A stretch of DNA of 64,000 nt from Streptomyces sp. WMMB303 (lineage in GTDB: Bacteria; Actinomycetota; Actinomycetes; Streptomycetales; Streptomycetaceae): contig NZ_JARKIN010000001.1 of assembly GCF_029351045.1 (NCBI RefSeq), positions 186,001 through 250,000 on the forward strand, given 5' to 3'. How positions within the stretch are numbered: position 1 is the stretch's first letter; every line of letters starts with the position of its first letter. Made by a program: the position numbers and the translations under genes. Under the pieces are notes generated by a model. That model made no database searches. It worked only from the letters and a program-made list of their open reading frames with translations, and was not told where the DNA came from. Positions 26,559-37,578 of the stretch are shown piece after piece.

Positions 26559-28937
26559 TCAGCAGGCGCCGAGGTCCTCCCAGACGCCTCCTCCCTGGGT
26601 GGTGCCGGGCTCGTCGCCCTGCGTCCACCACTTGGCCTTCCAGGTGTGGCCGTCGTGCGCCACCACGTCACCGCCGTGGTAGACGGTGGCGGCCGCCCAC
26701 GCGTCGCCGGAGCACTCACCGGGCTCCCCGGGATCGCCCGGATCGCCGGAGCCGGGTTCCACCACGGTCGTACCGCGCCTCAGGTCCCCGGCGAGCCCGT
26801 AGGTCGTGCCGTCGATGGTCACCGTCCAGTTGGACGGGGTCGAGACGGGCAGGTAGTAGACGAAGTCGAGCGAGATCGAGCCGCCGGGCGGCACGGACTG
26901 CCAGCCCGGCACCTTCAGTGAGACGCGCTGGAAGTCGCCGTCGAGTCCGCCCTTGTTGGGCCCGCTGTGGCCGCTCTTGATCACCTTCGCGCCGAAGCCG
27001 GACTGGTCCTTGGCGTTGTCCGGGGCGGAGGTTCCGTAGTCGAACTGGAACTCGGTACCGCCCGGCAGCGTGGTCCCGGTGTTGTTGGTGATCGTCAGCT
27101 TCGGGCCGATGGGGTAGTTGGAGTCGCCCAGCGGGAAGTCCCCGAAGGAGACGTCGATGTCGACGGCGTCGGTGGGCAGGTCGGTGCCCGCCCGCCGCGC
27201 ACCGTACGGGGAGGCGGACTTGAAGGCGTCGTACATGACGGTCGTGAGCGTGTCACCGCTCTCGTACTGGCCCTTCTCGCCGTTCCAGCCGTAGTCGCCC
27301 GCCAGTTCCCAGACCATCGTCCCGCCCAGGCCGCGGTCCACCACGTAGTCGGCCTTCGCCGCGACCGACTGCTCGTCCTCGGTGGACAGGAAGACCTTCT
27401 TCTTCTCGTTCCACAGCCAGGGCGCCACGAGCGTCGAGTCGTAGTGCCGGGTGTAGGTGCCCTCCAGGGAGGTGTCGGCGGGGAAGCCGTAGTCGGTCAC
27501 ATAGTCACCGACGACGCCCTTCTCCAGGTTCTTGGCGTGCCACATCGGGTTCGACCCCGCGGGGGACTCCTCCCCGTTCGCGTCCTTGTCGTGCCACAGG
27601 TTGTCGATGCCGACGGCGCCGTCTCCGCACGTGCTGAGCCCGGACCCGGCGGGGCAGTCGGACGAGGGCGCGGTGCCCCAGAGCCCGTCGGTGCCGCCCT
27701 GCACGTTCCTGTGCCCGCGGGTGTAGTAGGGCAGTCCGATGTTGATGCGGCCGGCGGGCATCGATCCGCGGAAGTAGTGGTACGCCCAGTCGGCGTTCAG
27801 GTAGCCGATGCCGCCGTACTGCGAGGTGTTGTAGACGCCTGCGGCGGCCAGTTCGCCGTCCTTCCCGTCGTCGAAGAGCGAGGCGTTCGGCCCGACGTAC
27901 TTGTTCCAGGCGCCGTGCAGGTCGTAGGACATGATGTTGACGTAGTCCAGGTACTTCTGCATCTGGTACGTCTCCATACCGCGCAGCAGCCATCCGGAGG
28001 CCGGTGCGGCGGCCGTGAGCAGGTAGTGCCGCCCGTCCTCGGCCCCGGCCCGGTCGAGCTTCTGGCGCAGCGTCTTCATCAGCGCGTCGTAGCCCTTCAC
28101 CAGGCCCGCGCGCCGCGGGTCGGCCAGCGACCAGTCCAGCGGATTGCCCGCGTCCTTCATGCTGGTGGCGTACTCGTAGTCGATGTCGACGCCGTTGAAG
28201 CCGTAGGTGCGCACGAAGTCCACCGCGGAGTCGGCGAACGTCTCGATGCCGGTGCGGTTCACCGAGCCGTCGGAGTTGGTGGCCATCGAGTAGAACCCGC
28301 CGGAGGCCACCCGCTCCCCGTCGTCGCCGAGGTAGCCGCCGCTCTCCGCCCAACCGCCGACGGAGATCATGGTCTTCACGTTCGGGTGCTGCTTCTTGAA
28401 CTTGTTGAGCAGATTGAAGTGGCCCTTGTAGGCGTACGCGGGGTCCATCTCGGCTCCCGGGACACCGGGCCAGGTCATTCCGGTGGCCGGGGTGTCCGCG
28501 CCGTCGGCGCCGACCGAGATCCGGTCGTCGGCGCCGACGTGCGCGAAGGCGTAGTTGAGGTGGGTGACCTTGTCCCACGGGATGTCGTCGACGAGGTACG
28601 CCGGGTTGCCGTCCTTGCCGGTGCGCCAACTGCTGAAGTAGCCGATGACGCGGCGCTGATGGTCGCTGCCCATCTTCTCGCGCCCGTTGTCGTCGTAGAC
28701 CGAGCAGTAGGGGACGTCGACGCCCGGCGTGGAGTAGAGGCCGTCGGGACGGCAGGACTCGTCCGCGCCGCCCGGCGCGGACGCGGAGTTCGTACCGGAG
28801 GGGGGTGCGGCGTGCGGTGCGGCTGCCGCGGGGGCGGTGAGACCGCCGAGCAGCAGCGCCGCGGTCGCGGCCGCGACCGCGGAGAGCGCGGCTCTCCCGC
28901 GTCTGAGCGGGTTTCTCCCGCGTCTGGGGGACACCAT
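26559..28937 (-). CDS. Secreted GH18 chitinase with CBM5/12
   Basis: A 792-residue modular chitinase. Residues 1-40 are a signal peptide with Arg-rich start. The GH18 barrel follows from about residue 95, with substrate-binding SVGGW (192-196) and catalytic GVDIDYEY, i.e. the DxDxE set Asp251, Asp253 and Glu255. An insertion domain and the terminal TMVWELAGDYGW close the barrel. Next come a beta-sandwich accessory domain (about 605-735), a Gly-Asp-Pro linker and a C-terminal chitin-binding CBM5/12 (AWAAATVYHGGDVVAHDGHTWKAKWW). It hydrolyses chitin outside the cell. Start ATG 28937 follows AGGAGG. The promoter carries a DasR-type site, so N-acetylglucosamine control is likely. Confidence 0.93.
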   Translation of the reverse strand: MVSPRRGRNPLRRGRAALSAVAAATAALLLGGLTAPAAAAPHAAPPSGTNSASAPGGADESCRPDGLYSTPGVDVPYCSVYDDNGREKMGSDHQRRVIGYFSSWRTGKDGNPAYLVDDIPWDKVTHLNYAFAHVGADDRISVGADGADTPATGMTWPGVPGAEMDPAYAYKGHFNLLNKFKKQHPNVKTMISVGGWAESGGYLGDDGERVASGGFYSMATNSDGSVNRTGIETFADSAVDFVRTYGFNGVDIDYEYATSMKDAGNPLDWSLADPRRAGLVKGYDALMKTLRQKLDRAGAEDGRHYLLTAAAPASGWLLRGMETYQMQKYLDYVNIMSYDLHGAWNKYVGPNASLFDDGKDGELAAAGVYNTSQYGGIGYLNADWAYHYFRGSMPAGRINIGLPYYTRGHRNVQGGTDGLWGTAPSSDCPAGSGLSTCGDGAVGIDNLWHDKDANGEESPAGSNPMWHAKNLEKGVVGDYVTDYGFPADTSLEGTYTRHYDSTLVAPWLWNEKKKVFLSTEDEQSVAAKADYVVDRGLGGTMVWELAGDYGWNGEKGQYESGDTLTTVMYDAFKSASPYGARRAGTDLPTDAVDIDVSFGDFPLGDSNYPIGPKLTITNNTGTTLPGGTEFQFDYGTSAPDNAKDQSGFGAKVIKSGHSGPNKGGLDGDFQRVSLKVPGWQSVPPGGSISLDFVYYLPVSTPSNWTVTIDGTTYGLAGDLRRGTTVVEPGSGDPGDPGEPGECSGDAWAAATVYHGGDVVAHDGHTWKAKWWTQGDEPGTTQGGGVWEDLGAC

Positions 28938-29027
28938 CTGATTCCTCCTGGGGGGTCGGTGTCGCACCGGGCGGCGGCCCCGCGACGTGCCGCCTCCGCG
29001 AGGCCGCCACAGATGAAGGTGACGCAG

Positions 29028-29111: not shown

Positions 29112-30374
29112 CTACACCGGGAAGGTGACGGGAAGGCGGTCCAATCGGGTCTCCCAGGTGGAGGCCGTGTCGGTGAGCTCGGCGGGATCGACGGCGGGCC
29201 GCAGACCGGGCAGCCGGTGCACCAGTACTTCCACCGCCGTCTCGATGACGGCCTGCCCGATGGCCTGCCCCGGGCACTCGTGCGGGCCGCTGCTGAACGC
29301 CAGATGGGCCTGGTTTCCGCGGACGGCCGTGCCGGTGCGCGGCCGGATCTCCGGGTCCAGGTTCCCCGGACCCAGTCCGAGGATCAGCAGATCGCCCGCC
29401 TTGACCTGCTGGCCGCCCAGTTCGCAGTCGGCGGTGGCGAACCGGCCCGGCAGCACGGCCAGCGGCGGCGAGTTCCACATCATCTCCTCGACGATGGCCG
29501 TGACGGTCAGCTGCCCGCTCACCAGGTCGGCGAGATGGGAACTGCTGCTGAGCACCGCCTGGAGCACCCGGGCCAGCAGATTGCTGGTGGTGGTGTGAGC
29601 GGCGATGAGGACGAGGCGGAGGTGATTCTGCACCTCGTCGTCGTCCAGGCAGGCGGGGTGCTCGATCAGTCCGGTGGCGAAATCGGGGCCGGGCTCGGCC
29701 CGCTTGTGCGCCGTCAGACCGGCGAGGACCCGCATGATCCGCTCGTTGTGCTCGACGGCGCCGTCACCGCCCCGCATCATTCTGGCGCAGGACGCCACCA
29801 GCTGCTCCCCTTCCGACTCGGGCAGCCCGAAGAGCCGGGTGAGCACCAGCATCGGCAGGTGATCGGAGTACTGCGGGACGAGGTCGGCGCGGCCGGTGTG
29901 CGCGAAGGCGTCGATCTGCTTGTGCGCGAAGTGCACGACGTGGCGGCGTATCCCGCGGTTCGCGACCGTCGCCATGCTGTCGGTGACCGCGCCGCGCAGC
30001 CGCTGGTGGGGCTCCCCGTCCTGGGAGAGGCAGTCGGGCCGCCAGCCCAGCATCGGGATGAGCGGGGACATCTCCTCGATCCGGCCCTCCTGCCAGTCCC
30101 GCCACCGTCGCGAGTCCCGGCTGAACTGGCCCGGGTTGTCCAGCGCCCGCCGGTTCTCCCGGTAGCCGAGCACCAGCCAGGCACGCACATCCCCCTCCAG
30201 CAGGACCGGCGCCACCGGTCCGTACTGCTTGCGCAGCCGCGAGTAGGTCGCGTACGGATCGGCCGTGGACTCCGCCGCGTACAGCCGGGTCGCCGCACCG
30301 GCGTGCCCCACCGGGCAGCCGGCGGGCGGGAGCGGCGCCTCCAGGCGCGTACCGTCGGAGGGCTGGGCGTTCAT
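29112..30374 (-). CDS. cvnE: Conservon P450, CYP157-like, lacking ExxR
   Basis: A 420-residue cytochrome P450, last gene of the conservon. The haem loop is FSSGPHECPGQA with Cys367; the I helix reads AAHTTTSN (258-265) instead of the usual AGxxT. The K-helix ExxR motif, near-universal in P450s, reads EEMMW (296-300), so the Arg is a Trp. Loss of ExxR is the known trait of the CYP157 family found in Streptomyces conservons. Start ATG 30374 overlaps the stop of cvnD (ATGA). Its substrate is unknown; in conservons it is thought to be an output of the GTPase/kinase complex. Confidence 0.9.
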   Translation of the reverse strand: MNAQPSDGTRLEAPLPPAGCPVGHAGAATRLYAAESTADPYATYSRLRKQYGPVAPVLLEGDVRAWLVLGYRENRRALDNPGQFSRDSRRWRDWQEGRIEEMSPLIPMLGWRPDCLSQDGEPHQRLRGAVTDSMATVANRGIRRHVVHFAHKQIDAFAHTGRADLVPQYSDHLPMLVLTRLFGLPESEGEQLVASCARMMRGGDGAVEHNERIMRVLAGLTAHKRAEPGPDFATGLIEHPACLDDDEVQNHLRLVLIAAHTTTSNLLARVLQAVLSSSSHLADLVSGQLTVTAIVEEMMWNSPPLAVLPGRFATADCELGGQQVKAGDLLILGLGPGNLDPEIRPRTGTAVRGNQAHLAFSSGPHECPGQAIGQAVIETAVEVLVHRLPGLRPAVDPAELTDTASTWETRLDRLPVTFPV

Positions 30375-30991
30375 CGGGACTCCAATACGGCGGCGGAGCG
30401 TTCCTTGACGTGGCGGATGAGCGTGATCAGCACATCGCGGCTCGACACCCGATCGCGTGCGTCGCAGTCGACGATCGGGGTGGCGGGCGAGACGGCCAGG
30501 GCCTCCCGCACCTCCTCGGCCGGGTGGCGGCGGGCGTCCGGGAAGACGTTGACGGCGATGACGAACGGGACCTCCAGGCGCTCCATCTCCTCGATGGCAC
30601 GGAAGCTGGACTGCAAGCGACGGGTGTCCACCAGGACGACCGCACCGAGCGCGCCCTTGAACAGCCCGTTCCACAGGAACCAGAACCGCTCCTGGCCCGG
30701 GGTGCCGAACAGGTACAGCACGAGCTGCTCGTTCAGGCTGATCCGGCCGAAGTCGAGGCTTACCGTGGTGCTCTTCTTGTCCGCCACACCGACCAGATCG
30801 TCGACTCCGGCGCTGGCCTGCGTGAGGGTCTCCTCCGTGGTGAGCGGCACGATGTCGCTCACCGAGCCGACCATGGTCGTCTTCCCCGTGCCGAAGCCGC
30901 CGGCGACCATCACCTTGACCGACCGGCTCCCCTGGTTCAGCGCGTCCGCCCGCTGCGGGAACGCCGGCTGGTCAAAGCCGTTGAAGTCCAC
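30371..30991 (-). CDS. cvnD: Conservon Ras-like GTPase
   Basis: A 206-residue small GTP-binding protein. The P-loop is GGFGTGKT (residues 31-38), the switch II region is FGTPGQERFWFLW and the base-recognition motif reads AVNVF. CvnD proteins work as a switch with the roadblock protein CvnB, in a heterotrimer-like assembly at the membrane with CvnA. Start is GTG 30991 behind GAGGAGG, inside the last codons of cvnC (20-bp overlap). It is coupled to cvnE by ATGA. Confidence 0.92.
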   Translation of the reverse strand: MDFNGFDQPAFPQRADALNQGSRSVKVMVAGGFGTGKTTMVGSVSDIVPLTTEETLTQASAGVDDLVGVADKKSTTVSLDFGRISLNEQLVLYLFGTPGQERFWFLWNGLFKGALGAVVLVDTRRLQSSFRAIEEMERLEVPFVIAVNVFPDARRHPAEEVREALAVSPATPIVDCDARDRVSSRDVLITLIRHVKERSAAVLESR

Positions 30992-31337
30992 TGAGTACCT
31001 CCTCGAGAAGCGCGAGGTCGGGGCCGGGGTCGCCCGTACCTGCGATCGGATCACGGGCTTCCACCCGGCCTGCGCCCAGCAGATCGGCCACCAGCACCGC
31101 GAGGATGTTGAAGGGCAGCCGCAGGTGCGCGCCCAGTTCGGCCACCGACAGCGGGTCGCGGCACCAGCGGAGGATGGCGTCGTGCTCGGGCTGGACCCCG
31201 GGCTCCGGCGCGGAGCGGGCGACGAGCAGGGTGGCCACGTCGAGGGTCGCCGCTCCCCCGGGGGTACTGCGGCCACCGGTGAGTACGTAGTAGCGCTCCA
31301 GCCCGCCCGGGCCCGAGCCCTGCCGCGGCTGGGTCAT
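30972..31337 (-). CDS. cvnC: Conservon DUF742 protein
   Basis: A 121-residue DUF742 protein. Family landmarks are RYYVLTGGRS near the N terminus and the winged-helix-like core WCRDPLSVAELGAHLRLPFNILAVLVADLL. It is always found between the roadblock and GTPase genes of conservons and binds other Cvn proteins. The start ATG overlaps the cvnB stop, and its end overlaps cvnD, so the operon is tightly coupled. Confidence 0.92.
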   Translation of the reverse strand: MTQPRQGSGPGGLERYYVLTGGRSTPGGAATLDVATLLVARSAPEPGVQPEHDAILRWCRDPLSVAELGAHLRLPFNILAVLVADLLGAGRVEARDPIAGTGDPGPDLALLEEVLSGLQRL

Positions 31338-31738
31338 CCAGGCTGCCCCTGCCGCGGCACGGTCCCGAGGAGATCCCCCATCCTGCGGGCGCAGTCCCTC
31401 ATCTGGTGCCCGAGCAGGCCCTGGTCGAGTCCGGACCTGGCGAGCACGCCCAGGTATGTCTCGGTTCCCGCGCGGACGACGAACAGGTGCCCGCCGTCCA
31501 CCTCGATCCCGGCGAGCCGGAGCCGGCCGTTCTCCTTGGGGAACTGCTCGGCGACCGGCTGGGCGAGCGACTGCAGGCCCGCGACGATGGCGGCGAACCG
31601 GTCGGCGTCGTCCGGGTCCGCGCCGTAGGACGTGATGGCCTTCCCGTCGGAGGAGGCCACCAGCGCGAAGCGGATCTCCTGGATGCTCTCCGCCAGTTCG
31701 CGGAGCGCCCAGCTCAGGTCGGTCTGGTGCTGCGTCAT
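31334..31738 (-). CDS. cvnB: Conservon roadblock/LC7 protein
   Basis: A 134-residue roadblock/LC7 (MglB-like) protein with FALVASSDGKAITSYG at the start and a LAGIEVDGGHLFVVRAGTETYLGVLA core. Such proteins act as GTPase-activating partners of Ras-like GTPases, here CvnD. Start ATG 31738 lies just upstream of the cvnA stop region; a GTG four codons earlier is possible. Third from the end in the cvnA-E operon. Confidence 0.9.
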   Translation of the reverse strand: MTQHQTDLSWALRELAESIQEIRFALVASSDGKAITSYGADPDDADRFAAIVAGLQSLAQPVAEQFPKENGRLRLAGIEVDGGHLFVVRAGTETYLGVLARSGLDQGLLGHQMRDCARRMGDLLGTVPRQGQPG

Positions 31739-31742
31739 GTGG

Positions 31743-33293
31743 CTAGTCACCCTCTTGTCGGTCATCGAGGCGGTCGTGCGTGTCGGGGGCGGAGGAGGGG
31801 CCGCTGCCGGAGACGAAGGCGGCCAGTCCGGCGAACGACTCCTCCGGCGGTACGCCCGGGTCCTCGCCGGCCGGGGCGCGCATGCCGTGGCGGACGCCGG
31901 GTCCGTCCGCGGACTGCTTGCTCCGCTTGGGCAGACCACCCGGCGTGGTGCCGCCCGGCAGCGGCTCCTCGTCCGGTACCTCGTCCGTCGGCGGGCTCAC
32001 CGGGACCGGATCGGGCCGCCGCCGGGGGATGGCGGCCCGCACCGAGGACGGGTCGGGATAGCGGGGCTGGTCGAGAGGCTTGAAGTACTTGTGCGGCACG
32101 ACGACCACGACGGCGGTGCCGAGCCACGGCGAGTGGTCGAAGGTGACCGTGATGCCGTACTTGCGCGCGAGGTTTCCCACGACCCGGAGGCCCAGCTGGG
32201 CGTCCTCGGCCAGTCCGCCCGGGCCCGAGCCGACGGCCACCCCGTCCAGCAGCCGCAGCGCCTGGCGCCGCTTCTCCTCCTTGAGCCCGGTCCCGGCGTC
32301 CTGGATCTCGATGCCCAGCCCGTTGGGGACCTCCCGGCCGGAGACGATCACCGTCTCGGCCGGGGGCGAGTACCGCGTCGCGTTGTCCATCAGGTGGGCG
32401 AGGATCAGCGTGAGATGGTCGACCAGGCTGCCGTCCACGCCCAGTTCCGGGAGGCTGCGCAGCTGCACACGCTTGTACTCCTTGATGCGCGCCATGCCGC
32501 CCCGGGCGACGCTGATCAGCGGCTGGTGGGTCTGCCACTGCCTGCCCGGCCGGTCCGCTCCCCCCAGCACGACGATGCTGGCGGCCAGGCAGTCGGCGGG
32601 ACCGATCTCCTGGTCGAGCTGCATCAGGTCGCGCGCCACCGTCGGCAGATTGCCGTGCACGCCCTGCATCTCGTGCAGCTGGGCCCGGATCTTGCTGGTG
32701 TAGACCTGCATCCGGCTGCCGATGCTGACCACCGACTGGCGAGCCGAGGTGCTGCGGTCGAACTCCTCCTCGATCGCGATCATCGCGGACCGCAGGATCT
32801 TCCGGAAGGTGCCGCGGAACTCCTCGGGCACCTCGGGGTCCTCGGCCAGCGGCCGCAGCAGGTCGTCCATCGCCTCGCCCTGGCGCAGCGCGTCGATGGC
32901 GGCAGGCAGGAACTCCTCCGGCAGCCGCAGCAGTTGCACCCGGTGCCGCTCGGTGACGTCGGTCAGGCGCGCCTGCAGGGCCGACAGCTCGGCGGTGTAC
33001 TTCTCCTCGACCGAGGCCAGCCACCGCTCCCACTGCTCCTTTTCCCGCATCGTCTGGTCCCGGTGGCTGCCGGCCGCGTGGCGGAACCGGCGTTCGCAGT
33101 TCAGCAGGCGCTCGACACACACGGCGGTGGCCGCGGTGGCCACCGCTCCGGCGATGAGGACCGCCGGCTGTGCCCCGGCCGACCCCGCGACCACCGCGAC
33201 GGCCGTGGCCACGCATATCGCTACGGGAAGTGCCCACCACGCGTACCAGGCAGCGGGCAGCCGGGCTGCGGGTGGGGTCGTGGCAAGTTCCAT
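31743..33293 (-). CDS. cvnA: Conservon sensor histidine-kinase-like protein
   Basis: A 516-residue membrane sensor. Two hydrophobic helices lie at residues 16-60, followed by a long helical region and an HATPase domain with N box DNATRYSPP and a glycine-rich lid (GTGLKEEKR, then GLRVVGNLARKYGI). The C-terminal 100 residues are Pro-rich and disordered. A canonical phospho-acceptor His box is not evident, as in other CvnA proteins, so it may act through protein contacts rather than phosphorelay. Start is ATG 33293; longer readings extend into the promoter region. It heads the cvnA-B-C-D-E operon. Confidence 0.9.
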   Translation of the reverse strand: MELATTPPAARLPAAWYAWWALPVAICVATAVAVVAGSAGAQPAVLIAGAVATAATAVCVERLLNCERRFRHAAGSHRDQTMREKEQWERWLASVEEKYTAELSALQARLTDVTERHRVQLLRLPEEFLPAAIDALRQGEAMDDLLRPLAEDPEVPEEFRGTFRKILRSAMIAIEEEFDRSTSARQSVVSIGSRMQVYTSKIRAQLHEMQGVHGNLPTVARDLMQLDQEIGPADCLAASIVVLGGADRPGRQWQTHQPLISVARGGMARIKEYKRVQLRSLPELGVDGSLVDHLTLILAHLMDNATRYSPPAETVIVSGREVPNGLGIEIQDAGTGLKEEKRRQALRLLDGVAVGSGPGGLAEDAQLGLRVVGNLARKYGITVTFDHSPWLGTAVVVVVPHKYFKPLDQPRYPDPSSVRAAIPRRRPDPVPVSPPTDEVPDEEPLPGGTTPGGLPKRSKQSADGPGVRHGMRAPAGEDPGVPPEESFAGLAAFVSGSGPSSAPDTHDRLDDRQEGD

Positions 33294-34096
33294 CTGGGTC
33301 CTCAACCAATTGCTCGGGCGGGGCGGGTCGGAATCGCTCTCGGGCGGCCGGATCCATGGCCGGAGGCGGCTCTCGCCGAGTGGTCCGCCGACACTTCCAC
33401 TTCCTTTCGCAAAGTGCTCCAGAAGCGGTGTGACGGCAGGCCACAGCTCCCGTGAGCGCGCCAACCCGCCGGGAGTCGGGGAGTTTAGCCAGGCGCGGGG
33501 CCGCCCCGCAGGAGATGCCATGTTCCGCCATACATCCCGGATTTCCGTTCGAACAACCCTGGGTGAAATCCGGCTCCCTTCGGCCGCGGCGGCCCCGGCC
33601 CCGGAATCCCGCGGCATCCGACGGTCGATCCACCCCGACCTGCGGGCGGGGCTCATTACCCCGCGCACTGCGGTCGTCATATGCCACCCGCAGTCGCCGG
33701 CGGAACGGCCGGGACTGTTCGAACAGTTCCCCGCAGTAACTTGTTGATGATTCTTGAACATCTACTCACGTAGGAGTTCTTTTTCTGGTCTACTTTGATC
33801 GTCCTGGATCAGTCACATGAGCCAGGCACATACCGCGTACACACCCCGGATGCATCCGTCGATTATGGGGAGACTCTTCTGGTACCGGCAGGACGTCCCG
33901 CCGGCCTCGCGGCCCACCCCACGAAGCGCGTGACCGGAAGGGCCCTTCTGCCTGCCGACCTGCTGCGGACAGGTCATCGGCGAGCGTCCGGATCGGCACC
34001 CCACCCGGGTAGTGCGCTGAGCCGCCGCAACCGCGCGCGCTTGTCATGCGCGCAGCACCACCCGTGGGCGACCCCACGAGCAGGAGGGACTCACCG
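33294..34096. other. Divergent region between conservon and orphan gene
   Basis: About 800 bp without a supported gene, containing the promoter of cvnA to the left and of the 550-residue orphan gene to the right. A stretch at about 33735-33800 is distinctly AT-rich (including TTGATG, TTGAAC and a run of T) and is the most likely promoter site, though I cannot fix the boxes. Confidence 0.5.
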
Positions 34097-35749
34097 ATGG
34101 AACGAAGCGCGACCAGTGGCGAACTGGCAAACATGATCAAGAATGTGATCAGGAGTTCTACAGACGACTTCAAACAACGCGAGAAAGCCGGCATCGCGCG
34201 TCGCGACACGGCAGTCCGCCGGGAAGAGCGGCATCGCGCCACATTCCCCGTGGAGGGCGCGCTGCGCCGGACGCCCCGGGAATTCACCACACTCGACGAG
34301 CCCGGAGCGGAGCGCCTGCGGCGGCTGGAGGCGGGCCTCGCCGTCATACAGAAGGACTTCCCCGGGATGGAGACCGGCGTCGATCTGTGCCGGCTCTCGT
34401 GCGCATTACTGGAGGGCGCCTGGCGCGAGCGCGCCGCAGGCCCGGACGCACCCGCATACGACGACATGTGCGGCTGTGCGCTCTGCGCCCACTTGCCCGA
34501 ACCGCTCCCCCGCGGGCTGGAGGACTACGACTGGCGCAGGAGCGACGGACGCCCGCTGAGGGTCAAGACCTGGCCCGAGCGTAAGGAACTCGACAGCGTG
34601 CTGACCGGCGGCTGGGTGTGGACCCGGAAGATGAACGACTCCGAACGGGACCTCGGCCTCCGCTTCCGGCACCAGGACGACATCCTGGTACTCCACGAGT
34701 ACAAGCGCGTCGAGGCGGCGATCGAGGTGTCCGAGAGCGCCCGGCGCGTGCGGCGGGGGCTCGCGCGGGACCGCACGAGCAACGGGGCACGCGCTCTGCT
34801 GTGCGGACTCTACGCCGCCTACAAAAGGTCGGTCGACGAGTACTGGCTCGACCGGCATGTGGCGGGCACGGTCGCACTCCCCCAACGCACGCCGCTCGAC
34901 AAGCCGTCCTACTCCCTGCTCCAGCTCATGGACTGCCTGTTCTGGCACGTCTCGCCGGACGAGGAGCTGTGGCAGGAGGAGCACCTGGCGGCGCTGGTCC
35001 TGTGCCGTGTGCTCAACGACATGACCGACGTACGCGCCGACGCGGTCACCGGCGAGGCCAGCAACTTCTGGCTGAGCTCCATGTCCACCCACGACAAGGC
35101 GCTCTACGGCGCCTGCGTCCTCGCGCTCCTCAAATACGGATGCCTGCCGGAATCCCACGACCTGCGCTGGAACTCCTGGCTGATGAACACCACCGTCGTC
35201 TGGGAAGGGCTGACGGGCCGGCACGCCCTGTGGTTCGACGGGATCACCGACGGCCTCCGCACACGGGAGGACTGCCTCCTGTGCGGCATCGAGCCCAACG
35301 CCTGCACCGGCCTGCTGACCGAGGGGGTTGCGCTGGAGGTCGGCGACATCCCGCTGGTGGAGCACCTCGGTGCCGCGGCGGCCGCCCTCTCGGCGCGCTG
35401 CCGCCGGGAGCAGCCCGCCGTCTGGCGGCTCTTCGACCGTGAACTGGCCGCGTTCGAGGCGCTGCACGGGGAGTGGCGCGGCAACGTCGGTTCGGTCTGG
35501 GAGATCCTGCGCCGCACCTACATCGCCGGAGTCCGGGCGTGTCTGGCCGGTGGCCGGGGTGCCCGCGCGGTCCAGACCGATTCCGGGGAGGTGGGTGCGG
35601 ACCTGTTCCACACCCTGCACCGGCCGCCCGCCTGCAAGGAGGACACGGCTCTGCTCTCCTACATGTTCGGCTGCGCCCATCCGCACTTCCTGTGGAACGC
35701 CCAGGGCTACGCGCCGTCCGCGGTCGCCGGCGACTGGCTGGACGGCTGA
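34097..35749 (+). CDS. Orphan protein, possible class I isoprenoid-synthase-like fold
   Basis: A 550-residue protein that I do not recognise. It is largely helical, with no signal peptide or clear membrane segment. Residues 307-324, NDMTDVRADAVTGEASNF, resemble the second metal-binding element of class I terpenoid synthases (ND..D...D...GE.N). A possible acidic partner, QDDILVLHE (193-201), lies 113 residues upstream, closer than usual and without the third Asp. Cys-rich pieces occur as CGCALC (about residues 130-135) and near the C terminus (FGCAHPHF). Codon 104 (34406-34408) is TTA. Start ATG 34097 has AGGAGGG eight bases upstream. It reads toward an AMP-ligase stub and an MFS exporter that also has a TTA codon. 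The enzymatic assignment is weak. Confidence 0.7.
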   Translation: MERSATSGELANMIKNVIRSSTDDFKQREKAGIARRDTAVRREERHRATFPVEGALRRTPREFTTLDEPGAERLRRLEAGLAVIQKDFPGMETGVDLCRLSCALLEGAWRERAAGPDAPAYDDMCGCALCAHLPEPLPRGLEDYDWRRSDGRPLRVKTWPERKELDSVLTGGWVWTRKMNDSERDLGLRFRHQDDILVLHEYKRVEAAIEVSESARRVRRGLARDRTSNGARALLCGLYAAYKRSVDEYWLDRHVAGTVALPQRTPLDKPSYSLLQLMDCLFWHVSPDEELWQEEHLAALVLCRVLNDMTDVRADAVTGEASNFWLSSMSTHDKALYGACVLALLKYGCLPESHDLRWNSWLMNTTVVWEGLTGRHALWFDGITDGLRTREDCLLCGIEPNACTGLLTEGVALEVGDIPLVEHLGAAAAALSARCRREQPAVWRLFDRELAAFEALHGEWRGNVGSVWEILRRTYIAGVRACLAGGRGARAVQTDSGEVGADLFHTLHRPPACKEDTALLSYMFGCAHPHFLWNAQGYAPSAVAGDWLDG

Positions 35750-36267: not shown

Positions 36268-37578
36268 ATGGCGAGCCGCCCGCGGCACTCCCTGCGCCAG
36301 GCATTACGGCATCTGGCTGTCCTACGGGAGCGGAATTTCCGCATCTTCTTCATTGGTTACACCACCTCGATGCTCGGCACCGCCATGGCGACGGTCGCGC
36401 TCGCGTTCGCCGTCCTGGAGGCCACCGGCTCGCTCTCCGACCTCAGCTTCGTGATGGCGGCGCGCATCGTGCCGCTCGTCGCCCTCCTGCTGGGCGGAGG
36501 AGTCCTCGGCGACCGGCTGCCCCGCCGCCTGATCATGCTGTGCTCCGACTGGCTGCGCGCATTGACCCAGGGTGCGTTGGCAGTACTGCTCCTGACCGGC
36601 TCGGTCCGGCTGTGGCAACTCCTCCTGCTGGCCGCGCTCGGCGGCGTCGGCGAAGCCTTCTTCAAGCCCTCCTTCGACGGACTGGTGCCGCACGTGGTCT
36701 CCCCCGCGCGGCTGCCGGACGCCAACACCATGATCGGCCTGGGCAACTCGGTGGCCGGCGTGGCGGGCCCCGCACTCGCGGGGGTACTGGTGACGCTGGC
36801 CTCCCCCGCCACGGTGCTGATGGTGGACGCCGGAACCTACGCCTTGTGCGCCCTGTTCCTGATGCGGCTGCACGTCCCTCCGTCGCGGGCGGCGGTCGTC
36901 GGCACCGGCGTGCTGCGCGAACTGCGCGACGGCTGGGGGGTGTTCACCGCGCACCGGTGGCTGTGGACGGTGACGCTGCAGTTCACCATGTTCAACTTCG
37001 TGGTCTGGGCGCCGTATCTGGTGCTCGGACCGGCCGCCGCGGACGAGAGTTACACCGGAGCCGGCTCGTGGGGCGCGATCGTGGCGGTCTACGGCCTCGG
37101 CTCCGTCCTCGGCGGGCTGCTCCTGCTCGGCCGGCGGCCCTCGCGACCACTACTGGTCACCACCCTGGTCACAGTGCTGTGGGCGGCCCCCTCCGCCGCG
37201 CTGACCGCCGGGGCGCCGCTCGGCGTGGTGTGCGCCGGTGCGCTGTGCGCGGGGGTGGCCAACTCGGTCTTCAACGCCTTGTGGATGACGACCATTCAGC
37301 AGTACGTGCCGCGTGAGGCGCTCTCCCGGGTGATGTCGTACGTGTCGTTCGGTGCCTACTCCATCGGCCCGCTCGGCCTTGCACTGGCCGGACCACTGGC
37401 GGAGCGTACGAGCATCTCGACAGTGCTGGCCGTCGGGGTCTGCTGGCAGGTGGCCGCCAATGCCTTCGTCCTCTCCCTGCCGTCCGTGCGCGGAGTGCGG
37501 CTGATCAGCGCGAAAGGTGGCGCACCGCCCGCAAAGCCCGCCCGGGAGCCCACACCCCAGGGCGGACCCCCGGCCTGA
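36268..37578 (+). CDS. MFS transporter (EntS/MFS_3-like)
   Basis: A 436-residue major-facilitator protein with 12 predicted helices. The family cue is the EntS-like first half (NFRIFFIGYTTSMLGTAMATVALAFAVLE, then GGGVLGDRLPRRLIML as motif A). The relatives export siderophores and other small products, or act as unspecific efflux pumps. Codon 13 (36304-36306) is TTA, so translation may depend on bldA. ATG 36268 lacks a strong ribosome site. Between it and the orphan gene lies the AMP-ligase stub, and just beyond its stop lies a collapsed dehydrogenase gene, which suggests a remnant biosynthetic locus. Confidence 0.85.
   Translation: MASRPRHSLRQALRHLAVLRERNFRIFFIGYTTSMLGTAMATVALAFAVLEATGSLSDLSFVMAARIVPLVALLLGGGVLGDRLPRRLIMLCSDWLRALTQGALAVLLLTGSVRLWQLLLLAALGGVGEAFFKPSFDGLVPHVVSPARLPDANTMIGLGNSVAGVAGPALAGVLVTLASPATVLMVDAGTYALCALFLMRLHVPPSRAAVVGTGVLRELRDGWGVFTAHRWLWTVTLQFTMFNFVVWAPYLVLGPAAADESYTGAGSWGAIVAVYGLGSVLGGLLLLGRRPSRPLLVTTLVTVLWAAPSAALTAGAPLGVVCAGALCAGVANSVFNALWMTTIQQYVPREALSRVMSYVSFGAYSIGPLGLALAGPLAERTSISTVLAVGVCWQVAANAFVLSLPSVRGVRLISAKGGAPPAKPAREPTPQGGPPA

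Follow-up and report, generated by a model that had tools for sequence, protein, structure and literature searches.

The locus considered here lies in a stretch of 64,000 nucleotides from Streptomyces sp. WMMB303 (contig NZ_JARKIN010000001.1, positions 186,001 to 250,000), referred to below as the window, and raises the question of what is encoded by a 550-residue open reading frame (ORF) that adjoins a conservon (cvnA to cvnE). We consider it probable that the product, the window protein, is a non-canonical class I terpene synthase which would supply a terpenoid sensed or released by the adjoining system, since the predicted fold, the invariant acidic residues, the terpenoid operons of some relatives and a chromosomal slot shared with canonical synthases all converge on this assignment. 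The gene and its elements are as follows.

34097..35749, forward strand: conservon-linked, predicted class I terpene-synthase-like protein of 550 residues (from the ORF, the family and the predicted fold)
34406..34408, forward strand: single TTA codon, Leu104 (codon scan of the ORF)
34469..34486, forward strand: CxCxxC, residues 125–130, invariant in the alignment of 126 relatives
34634..34651, forward strand: NDSERD, residues 180–185, second candidate aspartate-rich motif (D181 invariant, D185 in 123 of 126)
34673..34699, forward strand: QDDILVLHE, residues 193–201, first candidate aspartate-rich motif (D194, D195 and E201 invariant)
35015..35068, forward strand: NSE-like second metal motif [ND]DMxDxRxDxxxGExxN, residues 307–324 (alignment of 126 relatives)
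35216..35224, forward strand: GRH, residues 374–376, invariant; by order only, a candidate counterpart of the RY pair
35273..35284, forward strand: CxxC, residues 393–396, invariant in the same alignment

The frame runs from ATG 34097 to the stop codon ending at 35749. An AGGAGGG sequence sits a little 5′ of this ATG, and an in-frame ATG at 34046, 17 codons upstream, is a possible alternative start. Given its G+C fractions of 0.70, 0.50 and 0.89 at codon positions 1, 2 and 3, the ORF looks like a typical real Streptomyces gene. As the original prediction had held, no known family can be assigned to the protein: Pfam and NCBIfam gave no matches at E ≤ 1, and PDB sequences gave only five unrelated rows at chance level (best E 0.11). 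Its description as an orphan was mistaken, as a sequence search returned 155 relatives at E ≤ 1e-3. A profile search of the family found 157 proteins and a profile of divergent members 154 at E ≤ 10, each search scoring about 8000 word-sharing candidates and the best 120 of the 154–157 proteins being listed. Identity to the window protein was 53–95% among the 129 matches listed, with none below about 50% among those listed from the candidates scored. Most of the named relatives listed are annotated as hypothetical and come mostly from Streptomyces, with others from Actinomadura, Spirillospora, Nocardia, Allorhizocola and Nonomuraea. A family match occurred in 11 of 121 genomes of a Streptomyces sample, the window's own counted, and in 1 of 396 genomes of a phylum sample, that one being the window's own. 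When 54 members of one alignment (A1) were compared with Pfam at E ≤ 10, nine families were hit by one member each (best E 0.03), none of them an isoprenoid family. For neighbourhood counts, 61 family loci (numbered L below) were taken from genome contigs, of which L065 and L067 probably represent a single gene of one metagenome-assembled genome, split in two. One metagenomic relative, P0128, does not have the stretch bearing the GRH motif and CxxC 393–396, either through a real deletion or through an assembly error.

A fold unlike that of class I isoprenoid synthases would have counted against the original prediction, and the helical fold predicted here is not of that kind. CotB2 and other class I terpenoid synthases are among the closest known systems, and the best fold matches include squalene, dehydrosqualene and chain-elongating prenyl synthases. 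Conservation was counted over 126 aligned relatives, in all of which D181, D194, D195, E201, K243, R244, R304, D308, M309, D311, R313, D315, G319, E320, R375 and H376 are unchanged, as are the cysteines C98, C125, C127, C130, C393, C396 and C435. D185 (123/126) and N323 (125/126) are nearly so, and at position 307, 114 relatives have D and 12 have N. Residues 307–324 (NDMTDVRADAVTGEASNF), QDDILVLHE and the single TTA codon are all present where the original prediction had placed them. In DDILVLHE the next acid comes at +7; NDSERD fits [ND]DxxxD and falls at the C-terminal end of a helix predicted for residues 168–184; both are conserved. The two cysteine motifs bracket residues 131–392, a span covering much of the region alignable with class I synthases. 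Judging from the sequence, they could together act as a zinc clasp that encloses the predicted domain.

The likeness of residues 307–324 to a second metal-binding motif, which had been proposed from the sequence, has points for and against it. The initial ND, the later G, the E/D and the N stand in register with several canonical Streptomyces synthases, and ten positions of the two acidic elements (D194, D195 and E201 in the first, D308, M309, D311, R313, D315, G319 and E320 in the second) are invariant in all 126 relatives, which is more than chance would give. Several results point the other way. The NSE consensus is (N,D)D(L,I,V)x(S,T)xxxE, and the strict form has no match in the window protein, where positions 3, 5 and 9 of the consensus are occupied by M, D and D. 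Shuffles of the window protein yield a relaxed NSE-like pattern in 1.7% of cases. When 937 neighbour proteins were scored with a profile of 17 positions drawn from the canonical motif of 15 synthases, 17 of them (including a real canonical synthase, that of L013) equalled or exceeded the window protein, and the family median was lower still, so that this profile does not discriminate. Given these shuffles and scores and the missing strict consensus, the second motif by itself is weak evidence. A 46-position profile of the NSE helix, also built from 15 canonical synthases, gave no signal for the family, and neither did its two flanks. Nor did hhalign, run with the whole family and with residues 130–410 against 3 isoprenoid and 17 decoy families, a comparison in which the isoprenoid alignments were partly in the wrong frame and canonical terpene synthases themselves reached the other two isoprenoid families at only E 0.0035–0.0057. 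The window protein matched neither PF19086 nor PF03936 at E ≤ 1, nor did the 54 members at E ≤ 10, and PF00494 and PF00348 likewise matched none of these proteins. By sequence, therefore, the window protein falls outside the canonical terpene synthase family, as neither its PF19086/PF03936 profiles nor the strict NSE consensus is matched.

Evidence independent of the motif comes from the surroundings of the gene. The partner found there is the conservon on its other side, which the original prediction had not mentioned and which has the following genes.

31743..33293, reverse strand: cvnA, histidine-kinase-like (HATPase_c); start 33293 inferred, frame open to 33761
31334..31738, reverse strand: cvnB, roadblock/LC7 protein (domain match)
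30972..31337, reverse strand: cvnC, DUF742 protein (domain match)
30371..30991, reverse strand: cvnD, small GTPase, Pfam ATP_bind_1 (domain match)
29112..30374, reverse strand: cvnE, CYP157-like cytochrome P450 (domain match)

The cvnA–E genes adjoin the family gene in 50 of the 61 loci, a tie that is strong as genome organisation. In 44 of these the two are convergent (the family gene followed by cvnE through cvnA on the opposite strand) and in 6 the family gene diverges from cvnA, as in the window. The CvnA of the window shows two hydrophobic stretches joined by a short loop and no matched sensor domain, which fits the pattern described in PMC13343842, where conservon accessory proteins accompany CvnA proteins without a sensor domain. 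In all 59 CvnE sequences the ExxR arginine is replaced by Trp and the heme cysteine is kept; PMC3599690 reports the same signature for the conservon-linked CYP157 family. Of the other eleven loci, two stop at a contig edge (L050 and L065). An obligate pairing with the conservon was considered and rejected: CvnA-like genes occur in all nine genomes of the conservon-free loci, and four of these nine have a main-lineage conservon locus without a synthase match. In the literature no paper was found that combines "conservon" with "terpene synthase", subscription papers and preprints lying mostly outside this search.

Replacement of the gene beside cvnE was compared in two conservon lineages, the main one and that of L012. 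The main lineage comprises 43 of the 44 convergent loci, in which cvnE is adjoined at its 3′ end by the family gene. Streptomyces sp. 378 has its family gene elsewhere (L060), and the slot is filled by a canonical terpene synthase, convergent with cvnE, that exceeds the NCBIfam cut-off for 7-epi-alpha-eudesmol synthase. In four more genomes with the family gene elsewhere, neither a synthase nor a family member was found in the slot, one of the four containing a regulator-like stretch. Because the genes to either side of the slot correspond to their counterparts in the main set of loci, this is one chromosomal place in three states: occupied by the new family, by a canonical synthase or by neither. 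In a CvnE tree, main-lineage rows group closely whether or not their slot is filled, L012 sits on a long branch, and the window clade (7 rows) is separate with 100/99 support; in this last clade the family gene stands at the cvnA end and not in the cvnE slot. In the L012-type lineage, the slot of L012 itself holds the family gene. Those of L256 and L257, whose conservon DNA is 79–80% identical to that of L012, hold canonical PF19086 synthases, as does that of the more distant L258 (69%). Together with the synthase of Streptomyces sp. 378, these make four slot synthases, which match PF19086 at E 6e-31 to 8e-43. Below the cut-offs, the nearest profiles are encapsulin-cargo terpene cyclase for L208/L256 and L210/L257, and selinadiene synthase for L220/L258. 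As the slot synthases thus differ in type, the slot seems open to various cyclases.

Scanning for conservons around canonical synthases gave matches in 7 of 63 stretches, the other 56 having none within the few kb examined. The slot cases L208, L210 and L220 all belong to the 40 Streptomyces stretches L193–L232, the other 37 of which had no conservon match within about 3 kb; this count comes without a null rate. L241 and L255 represent one place with a CvnD-like match only. L253 (3135–12218) and L254 (2438–10832), from Actinomadura/Nonomuraea and picked because of nearby matches, have, on the upstream side of a conservon, a P450, a weak match to PF19086 and an ORF resembling the C-terminal part of squalene-hopene cyclase; a polyprenyl synthase-like gene lies close by. 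This is possibly another conservon–terpenoid association.

Away from conservons, some family genes lie in terpenoid operons. In L014 (Allorhizocola), genes for DXS, IspG, a polyprenyl synthase, the family protein and an alpha/beta hydrolase lie on one strand, with no canonical synthase found in the stretch or listed on its contig, which was matched by coordinates. The same genome has a second IspG elsewhere, which says little alone because several Streptomyces genomes also have two. In L013 (Actinomadura) the order is P450, canonical terpene synthase, family gene and GMC oxidoreductase; the nearest profiles, both below cut-off, are pentalenene oxygenase for the P450 and 7-epi-alpha-eudesmol synthase for the synthase. 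The P450 adjoining the family gene in L015 and L037 is nearest to albaflavenone monooxygenase, also below cut-off. The P450 frame at L037:12599–14152 covers only Pfam positions 4–336 of 462 and may be interrupted. No clear terpenoid neighbour was seen among the genes examined in L021, L051, L057, L059 and L060, where part of the neighbours are annotated.

Given the gene family, its invariant residues, its position by cvnA–E and the replacement by canonical synthase genes in the slot, all observed directly, we infer catalysis, a substrate, roles for the motifs and a link to signalling. The window protein most likely works like a terpene synthase. It would ionise a prenyl diphosphate, of which farnesyl and geranylgeranyl diphosphate are the usual substrates, with Mg2+ held by the two acidic motifs, and as a cyclase would make a small terpenoid. 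We propose that CvnE, P450-like with its ExxR arginine lost, would bind this terpenoid and control how active the kinase CvnA is, which lacks a sensor of its own; CvnA would then act via the roadblock/DUF742/GTPase relay. More tentatively, conservons may carry their own terpenoid signal generators, a canonical or zinc-clasped synthase making the CvnE ligand, and so form self-contained sender–receiver modules, the family being a separate synthase class unseen by profile searches.

Other explanations fit part of this evidence. The same fold and metal motifs could serve to attach a prenyl group to another molecule, which would make the protein a class I prenyltransferase or tail-to-tail coupling enzyme and not a cyclase. 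We regard this as unlikely, though the DDMxD of the second motif in 114 of 126 relatives is nearer the second aspartate motif of prenyl-chain synthases than to NSE, prenyl-coupling and chain-elongating synthases are among the best matches to the predicted fold, and the L013 operon already has a canonical terpene synthase. L014, however, already has a separate polyprenyl synthase, and the alternative occupants of the conservon slot are cyclase-type PF19086 proteins. The linkage to conservons in 50 of 61 loci and the missing strict NSE motif would also suit a pseudo-enzyme whose terpene-synthase fold binds a terpenoid or diphosphate as a conservon sensor without catalysis, as thought for the GAF protein CvnF8. 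There is a precedent, in PMC13343842, for a conservon accessory protein that acts on its CvnA. That role appears quite improbable here, as the motif acids are invariant in 126 relatives, the proteins of the L013 and L014 biosynthetic operons included, the family gene and the conservon occupy opposite strands in all 50 linked loci, and ordinary terpene synthases take its place in the slot.

A very improbable explanation is that the fold likeness reflects a common helix arrangement of unrelated function, the terpenoid neighbours and the shared slot being coincidental; fold and context agree independently, and slot sharing was seen in two conservon lineages besides two different terpenoid operons. 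The proposal that the protein is an isoprenoid-synthase-type enzyme of a class not yet described is partly supported, by the predicted fold and the terpenoid context, but not by the clues first offered for it along with the orphan label. The exporter of the major facilitator superfamily (window 36268–37578) was rejected as a partner and is a poor clue to specialised metabolism, being near the gene in only 2 of the 61 loci, L007 and L008, the two closest relatives. The TTA codon was set aside likewise, since only 6 of 61 loci have one in the matched part of the gene. If the protein is indeed a non-canonical class I terpene synthase, profile-based genome mining overlooks a whole family across many Streptomyces and some other actinomycetes, and conservons, whose inputs are poorly understood, gain a concrete candidate ligand source in the terpenoid from a neighbouring gene. 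Elsewhere in the window, positions 26559–28967 hold an 802-residue ORF, which by eye we take to resemble a secreted glycoside hydrolase family 18 chitinase.

Compared with known systems, the window protein has no sequence similarity that we could find to CotB2 (cyclooctat-9-en-7-ol synthase) or other class I terpenoid synthases. These have about 300–350 residues, whereas the window protein has 550, with extra helices predicted at both ends; they carry NSE and RY, whereas it carries [ND]DMxDxRxD and RH, and its family adds the invariant CxCxxC and CxxC. Squalene/dehydrosqualene and trans-prenyl diphosphate synthases are among its predicted fold matches, and the second motif of the family has a DDxxD-like core, but PF00494 and PF00348 do not match it. 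Like relatives of the window protein, 7-epi-alpha-eudesmol synthase and other PF19086 synthases occupy the slot 3′ of cvnE (in Streptomyces sp. 378 and three further genomes), although the new family itself gives no PF19086 match. CvnE (a CYP157-type P450) and CvnF (GAF) resemble the window gene in being attached to conservons with a sensor-less CvnA (PMC13343842), while the window protein has no P450 or GAF match in Pfam. Of the features of this accessory class, a gene beside cvnA–D is found in 50 of 61 loci, whereas a same-strand operon downstream of cvnD is not, the linked genes being 44 convergent and 6 divergent. Unlike CvnE and CvnF, the window family also occurs in biosynthetic operons without a conservon.
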